From: Tissierellia bacterium
GTDB taxonomy: Bacteria > Bacillota > Clostridia > Tissierellales > Tepidimicrobiaceae
Assembly: GCA_012839745.1 (NCBI GenBank)
Contig: DUMS01000087.1
Span: 1 to 64,000 of the forward strand
Length of the DNA stretch: 64,000 bases
Reading direction: 5' to 3'
This document shows positions 54,789 to 59,792 of this stretch, one piece after another. Below the pieces are notes generated by a model. That model was not told where the DNA came from. It did not search any database and saw only the letters and a list, made by a program, of their open reading frames with translations. The stretch's first letter is position 1, and each line of letters opens with the position of its first letter. Made by a program: the position numbers and the translations under genes.

Positions 54789-54861
54789 AGTAACTATCGA
54801 ACAAGTTCTCTAATATACTATTATAAGCAAAAAAATAATATATTAATTAGGAGGTGCAAGT

Positions 54862-55242
54862 ATGGCAACTAAGCTGTTTAAGCTGGTAATAGATGCAACT
54901 ACCACAACAGAAGTTAAAACTAATCCCATAGTAGATTTATATTTCTATGAGGTTGATGACGCTCATAGATTTGATAATACACTTGTAATTCCATCAACTG
55001 CATTTGTTGATGGAGAAGGAAATGACGTTACTGGCAATCTCACCCTTGCAGAGAGCGAAAATGGTTACTATTCATTGTTTATAAATGGTGTACAACAACA
55101 AAATTCTCTCTTTCAAGTGGAAGAAACTGGTGCTAGCCTTACTATTCAGCAGGCTACAACTATTCCTACAGGTGCAACCATTGTATTCATAGTAACTAAT
55201 TTTGACCCAATATCTAATTCTACTACAACAATAACAACTTAA
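54862..55242 (+). CDS. DUF4183 domain protein
   Basis: A 126-residue protein with one DUF4183 domain. The key segment is YYSLFINGVQQ near residue 73, followed by a beta-strand region ending in a Thr-rich tail. DUF4183 proteins are known from Bacillus spore exosporium and related surface layers. The same YYSLFINGVLQ motif recurs three times in the large next gene, which links the two. No signal peptide is seen, as is usual for spore-coat proteins. ATG 54862 follows AGGAGG. Confidence 0.8.
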   Translation: MATKLFKLVIDATTTTEVKTNPIVDLYFYEVDDAHRFDNTLVIPSTAFVDGEGNDVTGNLTLAESENGYYSLFINGVQQQNSLFQVEETGASLTIQQATTIPTGATIVFIVTNFDPISNSTTTITT

Positions 55243-55252
55243 TCAGAAAATA

Positions 55253-55282
55253 TCAGGGTGTGCAATTATTTGCACATCCTGA
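55253..55282 (+). terminator. Hairpin after the small DUF4183 gene
   Basis: TCAGG-TGTGCAA pairs with TTGCACA-CCTGA (one mismatch) around a short loop. The following T-tract is weak, so read-through into the next gene is possible. Confidence 0.6.
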
Positions 55283-55316
55283 AATGTTAATTTTATTCAT
55301 TGTGGAGTGATTATTA

Positions 55317-58316
55317 GTGTATAATGTAGATGTTTATCATTATAATGCATTATCCAATGGAGAGAAAAAAATCTATACTAATAATGATGAAATAAAGGAA
55401 TATGGTAATAGGGGAATACTTGACCCTAATAGCGTTACTTATTATAGTCTATTCATTAATGGAGTTCTGCAGCCAAAAGTTAACTATGAAATTAAGGAAG
55501 GGTTCCTAATACTAAAAACTGATGATGCTCCTTTAGAGGGCTCTCCAATTATTCTAACCTTTATTACCATCTCTATAAAGGAGAGTATATATTCAAAGCT
55601 TAATTCACTAACAGCTGAAGGCATGCTACCTACTGGTCATACATCCATTGGCCCTGTTTTTGATTTGGATGTTTGCATTGATAATGAAGCTAATAATTCA
55701 AATTTAAGACTTGAAAAATCCATTATATCTGGACCAAATCCTGTATATACAGGTCAAGTATCTCAATGGGATTTTACGTTAACAGTCACAAATACCAGCA
55801 ATAAATCAATTAACAATATAGTTGTAACAGATGACATCCTTCTGGACTTAATAGTAAGCTTAAATAGCTTATACTACTCCCAAGGAAATGTTGCACTTGA
55901 GGATAATACAATAACCTGGAGCATAGATATATTGAATCCAGGCCAATCTGCTACTGCCATATTCAGGGTTAAGGGTTTATTTAGTGCTCCTGGTACCCGC
56001 TCTATCAACAGGTCCTTTGCAGCTGGTACTGATACTACAGGTCAAATATCTACAGATGTTATTTATACTGAACCTATAAAAGTACATAGAGGGATATTTA
56101 TTACAAACACAATTTTATCAGGCCCTATGACAGTAAATTCTGGAAAATTACATAACTGGAGAGTTGAAATAAAGATATCCAATATAAGTAATGATAGAAT
56201 TACAGACATTTTAGTAATGGAAAATCTATTCATTGAAACAATACACAATATTAAGGTTGTAAATATATCTAAGGGAAATGCTAAATTATACAAAAATAAA
56301 GTCCTCTGGAATATAGAAGAGCTAAAATCACAGGAAGTTGCCATACATATACTTGATATAGAGGGCTCATTTTATTCTGAAGGGTTTAAAAACTTAAGTG
56401 CTACTATAGGATTTGGAAGTACATCATCTGGAGTAATTTTTTCTAATATGTCTAAAGACTTCCAAATTGCAGTCTGTCCAACATTAAAAGAAATAGAAAA
56501 GGAAATTGTTTTAGAAAAAAGCATAATAAGCGAGCCATTGGCAGGATTCCTAAACACTTTTAAAAAATGGACCTTTTCCATTAAAGCAACAAACACAACC
56601 AACGATTCTCTAAAGAACATAATCATAACAGACTACATGCTATTTGATAGATTGGATTATATCCAAAACTTATCTGTTCCATCAGGCAATGTCTCTATTT
56701 ATAATGATACAATCATCTGGAATATTGATGAGCTTAAACCAAAGGAATCCATAGAAGCAACCTTCGAAGCTGTAGGTCTCTTTTCTACTACAGGATTTCG
56801 GGCCATTAATAGAGCTATTGCTACAATAGGCTCCTGCACTTTATCCAATATTGATTCTGGAAAATTAGTTGCTATTTTTGATCCAATACATGACCTCAAT
56901 AAAACCTGTATATTGGCAAACAAAGTTTATTCTCAGTATCAACAGAGAAACTGCATTTTTAACATGGCTGTATATGTAGGTGAGGATGATTTTAAAAAGA
57001 TAACATTTAAGCCTGGATTCATTGCATATGGTACTTTAAAAATAAGGAGTATTAAAAATCATCCCCATTTTAAAAAGGTTACATTCCAATTAAAAATACC
57101 ATTCCAAATAGTTACCACAAAAAATAACATTATAGATGGATATTTGCCCAATATACTGGTAGATAAAATCATGTTCATGCCAAAAGCAAGAGATGAATTT
57201 TCATATGATATTAATGTAGAAACCTACTCGAAGCTTTTATGTCCTCCCATTAAACAGGATAATCAACTGAACTTTCCTGTTGGAGTATTTATTAAAGTTG
57301 GAGCAATTGGAAAAGTTCAGCTGTTCATACCTACCTATGAATTTCAATCAAACTATATAGCATTGGAAAGGATAGAGAAAAACTCCATATATAATATTGA
57401 CATATTAAAGGATATACTTAACCGCTATTTATCTCATAATGATAAACCAGCAAAGGATATTCAAAAAAACAAGTGTCCTGTATTTGGTCGCTTAAAGTTA
57501 GAAAAGCACATTGTATCAGGTCCCCTTAATGTTAGCTCCAGTACAGATAATACTTGGATAGTTGAAATAAAGGTCACCAATGAAGGAAATGGACCTATTA
57601 GCAATACAGTTGCAGTAGACACTTTATTGCTTAATAAGCTAATTAATTTTAGCATAATTAGCATTTCCAAAGGAAATATATATCCACAGAAAAATAAGAT
57701 AATATGGAATATAGGAAGGTTAAATTCCAGTGAAACAGCTGTACTATTAATAGAAATAACAGGTTCCTTTCATAATAATTCCAATTATATATTAAGGGGA
57801 GAAAGCTATCAGTATAATGCTGTTTCAAATGGCTCTAAAATCTACACTAATGGCGATAAAATACCTGACTATGGAAATTACGGCATCCCTAATCCAGATG
57901 AAATATCCTTCTTGAACTTATTTGTAAATGGAATACTACAGCCTAAACCAAACTATAGTGTAGAAGAAGGATCTCTAACATTGTTGACTGATGATGTGCC
58001 TTTAGAGGGTGTACCTATTATATTGGAGTACTTTAAAATAAGAAATAAAAATGGTCAGCTATTAAAAGCAGATGTTTATCAATACAATACTGTTGCTAAA
58101 GGAAAGAGCATTTATACAAATGATGATGAATTAACTACTTATGGAAATCAAGGAATACTTAACCCTGAAAAGGTTTCTTATATTAATCTCTTCATTAATG
58201 GAGTAATACAGCCAAAGACCAATTATTTGGTATCAGAAGGTATCCTTGAATTGACATTAGAACCATTGCCTATTGAAGGAGCTCCAATTATTCTCCAATT
58301 TATTACTCTTTTATAA
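55317..58316 (+). CDS. Large DUF4183/DUF11-like repeat protein, probable spore or cell surface protein
   Basis: A 999-residue modular protein. DUF4183 domains lie at residues about 1-85, 826-912 and 918-999. Between them are four DUF11-like beta repeats starting near 127, 256, 394 and 724, each opening like RLEKSIISGPNPV and continuing with an I-x-VTNTS-type strand and an IxWxIxxL turn. Residues about 540-690 form a different beta domain that weakly recalls the SPOCS (DUF3794) fold of SipL. No signal peptide or membrane anchor is seen, which fits assembly from the mother cell rather than secretion. GTG 55317 has GGAG 11 bases upstream. Function is inferred only. Confidence 0.78.
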   Translation: MYNVDVYHYNALSNGEKKIYTNNDEIKEYGNRGILDPNSVTYYSLFINGVLQPKVNYEIKEGFLILKTDDAPLEGSPIILTFITISIKESIYSKLNSLTAEGMLPTGHTSIGPVFDLDVCIDNEANNSNLRLEKSIISGPNPVYTGQVSQWDFTLTVTNTSNKSINNIVVTDDILLDLIVSLNSLYYSQGNVALEDNTITWSIDILNPGQSATAIFRVKGLFSAPGTRSINRSFAAGTDTTGQISTDVIYTEPIKVHRGIFITNTILSGPMTVNSGKLHNWRVEIKISNISNDRITDILVMENLFIETIHNIKVVNISKGNAKLYKNKVLWNIEELKSQEVAIHILDIEGSFYSEGFKNLSATIGFGSTSSGVIFSNMSKDFQIAVCPTLKEIEKEIVLEKSIISEPLAGFLNTFKKWTFSIKATNTTNDSLKNIIITDYMLFDRLDYIQNLSVPSGNVSIYNDTIIWNIDELKPKESIEATFEAVGLFSTTGFRAINRAIATIGSCTLSNIDSGKLVAIFDPIHDLNKTCILANKVYSQYQQRNCIFNMAVYVGEDDFKKITFKPGFIAYGTLKIRSIKNHPHFKKVTFQLKIPFQIVTTKNNIIDGYLPNILVDKIMFMPKARDEFSYDINVETYSKLLCPPIKQDNQLNFPVGVFIKVGAIGKVQLFIPTYEFQSNYIALERIEKNSIYNIDILKDILNRYLSHNDKPAKDIQKNKCPVFGRLKLEKHIVSGPLNVSSSTDNTWIVEIKVTNEGNGPISNTVAVDTLLLNKLINFSIISISKGNIYPQKNKIIWNIGRLNSSETAVLLIEITGSFHNNSNYILRGESYQYNAVSNGSKIYTNGDKIPDYGNYGIPNPDEISFLNLFVNGILQPKPNYSVEEGSLTLLTDDVPLEGVPIILEYFKIRNKNGQLLKADVYQYNTVAKGKSIYTNDDELTTYGNQGILNPEKVSYINLFINGVIQPKTNYLVSEGILELTLEPLPIEGAPIILQFITLL

Positions 58317-58321
58317 AAAGA

Positions 58322-58348
58322 CCAAGCCAAAACTAGATTTTGGCTTGG
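58322..58348. terminator. Terminator between convergent genes
   Basis: CCAAGCCAAAA pairs perfectly with TTTTGGCTTGG around a 5-base loop. The minus-strand side has a TCTTTTTAT tract, so it may serve both the large surface gene and the coiled-coil gene. Confidence 0.85.
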
Positions 58349-58368
58349 AATTTCCATCTTTATCATTT

Positions 58369-58668
58369 TTAAAACCTTATATTCTCTAAATCCATATATT
58401 CATCTTTTAGCTTATTTTTATTTACTAATATATCTTCTTTTTTTGATTTATTTGCCCCTTTTAATTTGCCTTCGCTTTCTAATTTATCTTCTCCTTCCAG
58501 TTTCATTAGTTCCTGTTCAAGGGCTTCCAATTGACTCTTATAGATTTCCAGTACAAATTCCTGATTAGGCCTTAAGTGCTTTGGTACTTCCTCCATTATA
58601 ATTTCACTATCTTCTATTAATTTTCTTTTTCTTTCTATTTCTTTTTCTATTTTTCTTTTTATATCCAT
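58369..58668 (-). CDS. Small charged coiled-coil protein
   Basis: A 99-residue protein, about 40 percent Lys and Glu, with a predicted helical core (residues 1-62) and a Lys-rich tail. No family is recognised. Its ATG overlaps the stop codon of the beta-helix gene (TAATG), so translation is probably coupled and the two products may act together. The ribosome site is GGAAGGTGA within the upstream gene. Confidence 0.75.
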   Translation of the reverse strand: MDIKRKIEKEIERKRKLIEDSEIIMEEVPKHLRPNQEFVLEIYKSQLEALEQELMKLEGEDKLESEGKLKGANKSKKEDILVNKNKLKDEYMDLENIRF

Positions 58669-59699
58669 TAATTATCACCTTCCTTTAATTCCTCATTACT
58701 ATTATCTTCTCTATAAGAACAATTTCCACAGATATCACTTGGGGATTCACAAGGTTCGCATGGTTTGTCTATGTTGTTTATAAAATTATTGTTAGTACCT
58801 CCATCAACTATATTTTCTGGAATGTTACATACCAGCTCATTGTCCATTACAAGATTTGCCATAAAGCTCTCACCAAGTATAATTCCATTGTCTCCATTAT
58901 ATGCTATTTCATTATTCATAAATATTCCAAACTGGCTATTGTTTTCTGTGCCTATGCTTCTATTGCATAATATATTGTTTTCTCCTGCAAAATAGTTAGT
59001 ATATTCATTGAATACGAAGTGAGTACCCAGCTTAGTTCCTTTGACTATATTTCCAATAGCCACAGAGCCACTTCCCTCGTTTATGATTATTCCAAGGCCA
59101 TTATCTATTAATAAATTATCCAATAGCAAATTGTTGCTGCCATATATATCTAATCCATTAAATCTACTTCTCATGGCTGTATTAGATATGAAGGCATTGT
59201 TGCTGTCCGGTGCTAAAAAGGACTCAAATCCATCATCAAAGCATTCCTTAACTACATTTTCTATAACTCGGTTACTGGTGCTACCTTGAATTAATCTTAC
59301 ACCATCCGAACAACTACATATTTCATTTTTCCAAATTAAATTGCCACTGGAGCCAAAGACATCAATAGCATTACCTATTGTATTGCTAATTTTATTATTT
59401 ACTATTCTATTGCCTGACCCAGATTGAATTAGCATACCATTAGCTCTATATTGCTTAATATTGATTCCTTCTATTGCAGTTCCAGTTACATTTGACAGTG
59501 TAAAGGCCGTTAATAAAATGCTTTTACCATCGAATATGACTTGAGGACCTTTAGCTACAATTCGAATATAATTTTTAGTAATGTTTACAGTTTGAAAATA
59601 TATTCCTTCCTCTAAAAGAAGCACATCTCCTTCACTTACATCATCAGAGACTATTAAAGCAGTAATATCTATAAGTGGCGTTACATTTATTATGGCCAT
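58668..59699 (-). CDS. Right-handed parallel beta-helix (NosD-like) repeat protein
   Basis: A 343-residue protein with about ten beta-helix coils: repeated SGNRIVNNKISNT-, GNLIWKNEICSC- and NLLLDNLLIDNG-like rungs (residues about 60-300), as in NosD/pectate-lyase-like families. The C-terminal tail has a CEPCESPSDICGNC cysteine cluster that could cross-link or bind metal. No signal peptide. No catalytic residues are evident, so a structural surface role is plausible. ATG 59699 follows GAAGGGAAG. It is convergent with the DUF4183 genes. Confidence 0.82.
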   Translation of the reverse strand: MAIINVTPLIDITALIVSDDVSEGDVLLLEEGIYFQTVNITKNYIRIVAKGPQVIFDGKSILLTAFTLSNVTGTAIEGINIKQYRANGMLIQSGSGNRIVNNKISNTIGNAIDVFGSSGNLIWKNEICSCSDGVRLIQGSTSNRVIENVVKECFDDGFESFLAPDSNNAFISNTAMRSRFNGLDIYGSNNLLLDNLLIDNGLGIIINEGSGSVAIGNIVKGTKLGTHFVFNEYTNYFAGENNILCNRSIGTENNSQFGIFMNNEIAYNGDNGIILGESFMANLVMDNELVCNIPENIVDGGTNNNFINNIDKPCEPCESPSDICGNCSYREDNSNEELKEGDN

Positions 59700-59792
59700 A
59701 AAATAACTTCCCTTCTAATTAAATTTAATTGGCTTGTTCAATAATAATATATTCACCATATTACAATGTGTGACAAGCTTGACACAAAAATA

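Follow-up and report, generated by a model that had tools for sequence, protein, structure and literature searches.

Proteins with a DUF4183 domain form fibrillar endospore appendages (F-ENA) on spores, a system described in 2025 in a preprint (PMC11952670). In Clostridium aceticum, F-ENA-3 and F-Anchor-3 are encoded by CACET_c28680/c28690; the anchor consists of one DUF4183 domain, four DUF11 domains, a CsxA-like domain and two further DUF4183 domains, and it was proposed to replace one subunit of the CsxA lattice of the exosporium (PMC11952670). "CsxA-like" is the preprint's name for this anchor domain. Unexplained O-glycan densities were reported on another fibre, F-ENA-4.

Here we analyzed a locus from a Tissierellia bacterium (genome assembly 86% complete), located in a 64,000-nt stretch of DNA that is referred to in full as the window. 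A check of the open reading frames of the window placed the four predicted genes where the initial annotation had put them. Gene content, homology, domain order, conservation of promoters and of a hairpin, and co-occurrence with a sporulation gene make it very probable that the locus serves to produce and anchor an F-type endospore appendage, with a convergent beta-helix gene pair as a separate component.

Fibre subunit and anchor genes

54862-55242, + strand: F-ENA subunit gene, 126 aa, comprising an N-terminal hook/neck and a DUF4183 head (Pfam DUF4183, 3.5e-13; PDB 9n0b match)
55317-58316, + strand: F-Anchor-3-type anchor gene, 999 aa, GTG start (architecture; 14 orthologues aligned)
55347-55562, + strand: anchor DUF4183 head 1 (1.5e-24)
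55701-56879, + strand: three DUF11 (Ig-like) repeats, limits approximate (Pfam DUF11 in three stretches, 1.3e-17; beta-rich model)
56892-57344, + strand: CsxA-like domain, a predicted exosporium-lattice plug (identity to stand-alone CsxA-like proteins)
57489-57767, + strand: fourth DUF11-like repeat, limits approximate (BLAST of repeat 1 against an orthologue, 2.6e-9)
57834-58301, + strand: anchor DUF4183 heads 2 and 3 (2.1e-21 and 5.0e-21)

The DUF4183 domain of the 126-aa protein scored 49.6 bits against a Pfam cut-off of 25.1. Residues 1-125 aligned colinearly, hook region included, with residues 1-123 of PDB 9n0b (1.1e-30), a cryo-EM "spore filament protein subunit" that is about half identical to it in sequence and that we infer to be the F-ENA-4 entry; a weaker match was 9i65, also a DUF4183 protein. 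By this homology, the product of the first gene is an F-ENA subunit. Three DUF4183 domains above the curated Pfam cut-off (2.7e-65) were found in the 999-aa protein, and these and the single domain of the subunit were the only four detected in the whole genome. The initial annotation had counted the motif YYSLFINGVLQ once in the small and three times in the large protein. This distribution, including the placement at both ends of the large protein, holds for the DUF4183 domain, whereas the exact string is present only once, in the first DUF4183 domain of the 999-aa protein, with the variants YYSLFINGVQQ, FLNLFVNGILQ and YINLFINGVIQ elsewhere. The four DUF11-like repeats noted previously were recovered, three as stretches matched by Pfam and the fourth (about residues 717-820) by the BLAST comparison of repeat 1 with an orthologue, and what had been called a distinct beta domain is the CsxA-like domain at about residues 525-676. 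The domain order and gene context of an F-Anchor-3 were found, namely, a DUF4183 head, DUF11 repeats (0-4), a CsxA-like domain, two further DUF4183 heads and an adjoining F-ENA gene. Since this is the F-Anchor-3 architecture, the first two genes belong to the described F-ENA-3/F-Anchor-3 pair, and the earlier statement that no described system has such a combination fails for them; the preprint contains the pair with equal domain order. This core of the locus is therefore already described, ordinary in kind and well supported.

Anchor residues 525-676 are 42-43% identical to a stand-alone 210-aa protein that Tissierella sp. P1 encodes about 2 kb away from its F-ENA and anchor genes. The genome under study carries its own stand-alone copy (C33:80333-80905), which is 45% identical to the anchor domain and 60% identical to the Tissierella sp. 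P1 protein, with an isc gene neighborhood in both organisms. The domain had no match among Pfam and NCBIfam models, and a profile search of the stand-alone family against the PDB found nothing. The own stand-alone protein (213 aa; G000:C33:80279-80920) contains 6 cysteines compared to 25 in C. sporogenes CsxA (PMC7333573). On sequence grounds, paralogy of the anchor domain with a stand-alone gene fits the proposal of an anchor that sits in a CsxA lattice. A Cys-containing DUF4489 protein is encoded near the own CsxA-like gene (L074:6237-6770, in G000:C33).

Since exported surface proteins often contain DUF11 repeats, the 999-aa protein might be taken for a DUF11 adhesin or S-layer-type protein of the ordinary kind, exported to the surface of vegetative cells. 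We consider this highly improbable: neither a signal peptide nor a cell-wall anchor was seen, the protein carries DUF4183 heads and a CsxA-like domain, sigma-K-type promoters precede its orthologues, and it matches the published anchor. Inspection of the N-termini by eye revealed no signal peptide in any of the four proteins, in line with the initial annotation.

Where the locus is complete, DUF4183 genomes almost always have one single-head subunit gene and one three-head anchor gene; the exceptions are G030, in which a contig end cuts the locus, and G048, which has two subunit genes. Anchors are about 420 to about 1046 residues long and differ in the number of DUF11 repeats, while the heads stay three; in long anchors, head 1 is separated from heads 2-3 by the lattice and spacer domains. 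In a tree of the heads, second heads grouped together whether they came from long or short anchors (18/20, support of 0.80), and this grouping by position suggests that the three-head arrangement is old. An AlphaFold2 monomer model of the anchor was beta-rich (pLDDT 72, pTM 0.35) and, with this pTM, neither proves nor excludes a triad of heads; a fold search with it returned generic Ig-like chains only. The natural reading is that the three heads on one chain represent a pre-fused trimer. The F-ENA subunit would trimerize and stack into a thin C3 fibre, the N-terminal hook of each trimer being inserted into the preceding one, and the heads of a single 999-aa chain would seed this fibre at its spore end. 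The CsxA-like domain would stand in for one CsxA subunit of the exosporium lattice, as extrapolated from the preprint, with the four DUF11 Ig-like repeats probably acting as spacers.

In short anchors (L139-L150), the place of the CsxA-like and DUF11 part is taken by a conserved domain of unknown family (CFLTDKxGNILNPY...) that spans the first ~190 residues. This domain may provide another route of spore attachment; its assignment as CsxA-like was unsupported (hhalign probability of 2%). The anchor gene of Alkalithermobacter paradoxus (L023:7980-10782) is present in two overlapping frames, split near residue 408, reflecting either a real frameshift or a sequencing error.

Sporulation context, promoters and the hairpin downstream of the subunit gene

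The own genome contains spoIVA. Among 100 relatives (own genome counted), spoIVA scored above the cut-off in 66, with no match over the cut-off in the other 34, and it was present in 12/12 genomes with DUF4183 and in 6/6 with the beta-helix gene. Together with the 9n0b homology and the sigma-K-type promoters, this co-occurrence lends good support to the proposed spore-surface location and mother-cell expression. A search for SigE/SigK-type promoters, suggested at the outset, revealed sigma-K-type elements before F-ENA and anchor genes and a close variant before beta-helix genes.

54793-54820, + strand: sigma-K-like promoter of the F-ENA subunit gene, AC-N17-AATATACTA

The sigma-K consensus of B. 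subtilis is AC, 16-17 nt, CATANNNTA. The C. difficile sigma-K signature combines a -35 AC with a -10 like that of sigma-E (PMC3789822). Counted over orthologues, which are not independent samples, the canonical element (AC, 16-17 nt, CATANNNTA) was found before 10/22 anchor genes and 5/10 outgroup F-ENA genes but 0/142 control genes; allowing a TA or TG end raised these counts to 12/22, 8/10 and 1/142, respectively. The -10 of the window subunit gene, AATATACTA, is one base off the consensus, with A in place of the first C. This one-base variant, AC-N17-AATATAYTA, precedes the window gene and its order-level orthologues (6/13 F-ENA loci compared to 0/145 control upstream regions), a count that is biased, as the pattern was chosen after the sequences had been viewed. 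Genome-wide, the variant gave 25 matches compared to 41 in a reversed control and, lacking enrichment, does not count as evidence by itself. The case for the promoters therefore derives from the conserved position in orthologues and from the canonical form in the outgroup, the occurrence of the canonical form there and before anchors being the less biased test. During late sporulation, the mother cell would thus be expected to make the 126-aa subunit from sigma-K-type promoters.

55253-55282, + strand: conserved RNA hairpin just 3′ of the F-ENA stop codon

Subunit and anchor genes are separated by 74 nt, which fold into a 13-bp hairpin (z = -4.7). In most linked relatives, its core, GGATGTGC-loop-GCACATCC, is found again a short distance 3′ of the stop codon of F-ENA. 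In the 100 genomes, the pattern was found in 10 of the 12 with DUF4183, as one copy each after the F-ENA gene, and in 3 of the 88 others, where two matches are ordinary terminators and one lies within a gene; the reversed control matched in one genome. One further, more distant genome has the core; in several others, the equivalent place is taken by GGGTGGGC/GCCCACCC-type stems, which represent compensating changes. In an alignment of 19 loci, 97.7% of cells were paired and 5/9 pairs had changed on both sides; the covariation score was reached by 0/500 shuffles. No Rfam family matched the hairpin (the best hit, at chance level, had E = 0.22). A DNA-binding palindrome was rejected because the arm spacing varies and because the window copy pairs via G-U, which is workable only in RNA of the + strand.

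We read the hairpin as a 3′-end element that would cap the abundant subunit message and limit read-through to the anchor, thereby separating the expression of the two genes and allowing many subunits per anchor. That it is a mere intrinsic terminator with no special role is an explanation to which we give about the same weight as to its opposite. Most copies are followed by several T residues, and the position is that of a gene 3′ end even in L067, where the hairpin remains at the subunit gene with the anchor 13 kb away. However, the stem sequence is kept at about 50% protein identity and is almost confined to the place after F-ENA in the 100 genomes, and two loci, those of the window and of G015, retain the hairpin but lack the T run. 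In both of these loci, the anchor has no recognizable promoter of its own, and loci with an anchor promoter tend to have the T run.

The convergent beta-helix gene pair

58322-58348, - strand: terminator-like hairpin between the convergent gene pairs
58369-58668, - strand: 99-aa Lys/Glu-rich protein, probably helical, beta-helix partner (homologues beside beta-helix genes elsewhere)
58668-59699, - strand: right-handed beta-helix protein, 343 aa, Cys tail (Pfam Beta_helix, 9e-10; AlphaFold2 model)
59745-59771, - strand: sigma-K-like promoter of the beta-helix gene, AC-N16-AATATATTA (conservation; genome match)

The 343-aa protein matched Beta_helix above the Pfam cut-off and was modeled by AlphaFold2 as a right-handed beta-helix (pLDDT 82, pTM 0.83). 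A fold search with this model returned generic PDB beta-helices (lyases, an adhesin, tailspikes) and no specific function. The CxxC-rich tail pointed out previously contains three cysteines, C314, C317 and C324, that are invariant in seven relatives. The 99-aa protein had no match to known families (Pfam etc.); homologues lie directly downstream of beta-helix genes in L027, L029 and L140. The two genes share one base (TAATG), which makes the translational coupling claimed for them plausible. The element AC-N16-AATATATTA precedes 8/10 beta-helix genes and 0/145 controls. CTTGT/ACAAG boxes that look like SpoIIID sites flank the beta-helix promoters, in the window at 59730-59790 (- strand) and also upstream of paralogues; the pattern WWRRACARNY was present in 6/10 beta-helix and 6/13 F-ENA regions compared to 13/145 controls. 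Close paralogues of the beta-helix gene are found in the own genome on C88 and, just beyond the window, on C83. Tandem or single extra copies were observed in G000:C83:75390-77393 (L025), G012:C46 (L028) and G004:C84 (L030), and several are broken by stops or frameshifts at places that differ between genomes.

The initial annotation had treated the four genes as one locus, and the beta-helix and 99-aa proteins could be integral to the F-ENA machinery, for instance as a tip or as an accessory on the exosporium side. In a distant genome of another family (G145, locus L140), an F-ENA gene and an anchor gene are followed by convergent 99-aa and beta-helix genes in the same order as in the window; the modules are adjacent in two of the three genomes that have both (G000 and G145), and their sigma-K-like promoters are similar. 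Nevertheless, such a single system appears unlikely to us. The modules are unlinked in the third genome (G094), and neighbors in other loci are unrelated. Among the 100 relatives, 4/6 beta-helix genomes have no DUF4183 and 10/12 DUF4183 genomes have no beta-helix gene, which is also missing from 9/10 further class members with DUF4183. The beta-helix pair was absent beside F-ENA in L020-L024 and in the order-level loci read. Neighborhood conservation, a check put forward with the initial annotation, gave partial support to the one-system claim: the beta-helix pair was found beside F-ENA once more, in G145.

Mostly separate occurrence combined with one shared order points to a spore-type module of its own, whose link to the fibre locus is real but occasional. 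Expressed from its sigma-K-like promoters, this separate module would probably decorate the exosporium. Our best guess, which has roughly even prospects of being right, is that the 343-aa protein is a disulfide-linked exosporium surface protein; a literature search for beta-helix proteins in the spore coat and exosporium found none. A bolder, rather doubtful proposal is that the hairpin is a dedicated RNA element, acting through sequence and shape, which sets the subunit-to-anchor ratio, and that the beta-helix/helical pair is moreover a new disulfide-linked class of spore-surface accessories of clostridial exosporia. If this were true, the hairpin would set the length and number of spore fibres.

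Comparison with described systems

The locus adds one more Tissierella-group genome to those encoding F-ENA fibres. The text of PMC11952670 contains no mention of a promoter, hairpin, terminator or beta-helix; new compared to it are the sigma-K-type promoters, the covarying hairpin, the beta-helix/99-aa module and a glycosylation cluster between fibre genes. The promoters of the subunit, anchor and neighboring genes provide sequence evidence for the timing of fibre production, the hairpin hints at a way in which the output of subunit and anchor may be kept in balance, and the module points to an uncharacterized beta-helix family in spore formers.

The 343-aa protein shares the right-handed fold of NosD and other parallel beta-helix proteins. 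It differs from NosD in its score (32.6 bits compared to a cut-off of 300), in the absence of a signal peptide by inspection and in its Cys tail. The own stand-alone CsxA-like gene is divergent from another ORF, like csxA of C. sporogenes (PMC7333573), but its product is far poorer in Cys. The F-ENA/F-Anchor/F-BclA system of Bacillus thuringiensis likewise combines a DUF4183 subunit with a DUF4183-bearing anchor. However, the window anchor has neither the collagen repeats of a stalk nor an exosporium leader, and it bears three heads on one chain in place of one head per trimerizing chain; no counterpart of the F-BclA tip gene was seen beside the window locus.

In G043:C31:12000-44000 (L066/L067) and G048:C1:1514000-1546000 (L072/L073), a 13-kb nonulosonic acid cluster lies between anchor and F-ENA genes. 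It encodes a GDP-mannose dehydratase-type protein, UDP-GlcNAc 2-epimerase, NeuB, a CTP transferase, and MptE/Maf-like and GT2-TPR glycosyltransferases, and this nonulosonate/Maf-like cluster is a candidate for the machinery behind the O-glycan densities on F-ENA-4. With 9n0b, the presumed entry of F-ENA-4 of Anaerovoracaceae, the window subunit shares an end-to-end alignment that includes the N-terminal hook region, at roughly half identity. The closest counterpart in organization is F-ENA-3/F-Anchor-3 of Clostridium aceticum, a different organism with the same adjacent genes, single-DUF4183 subunit and anchor domain order.
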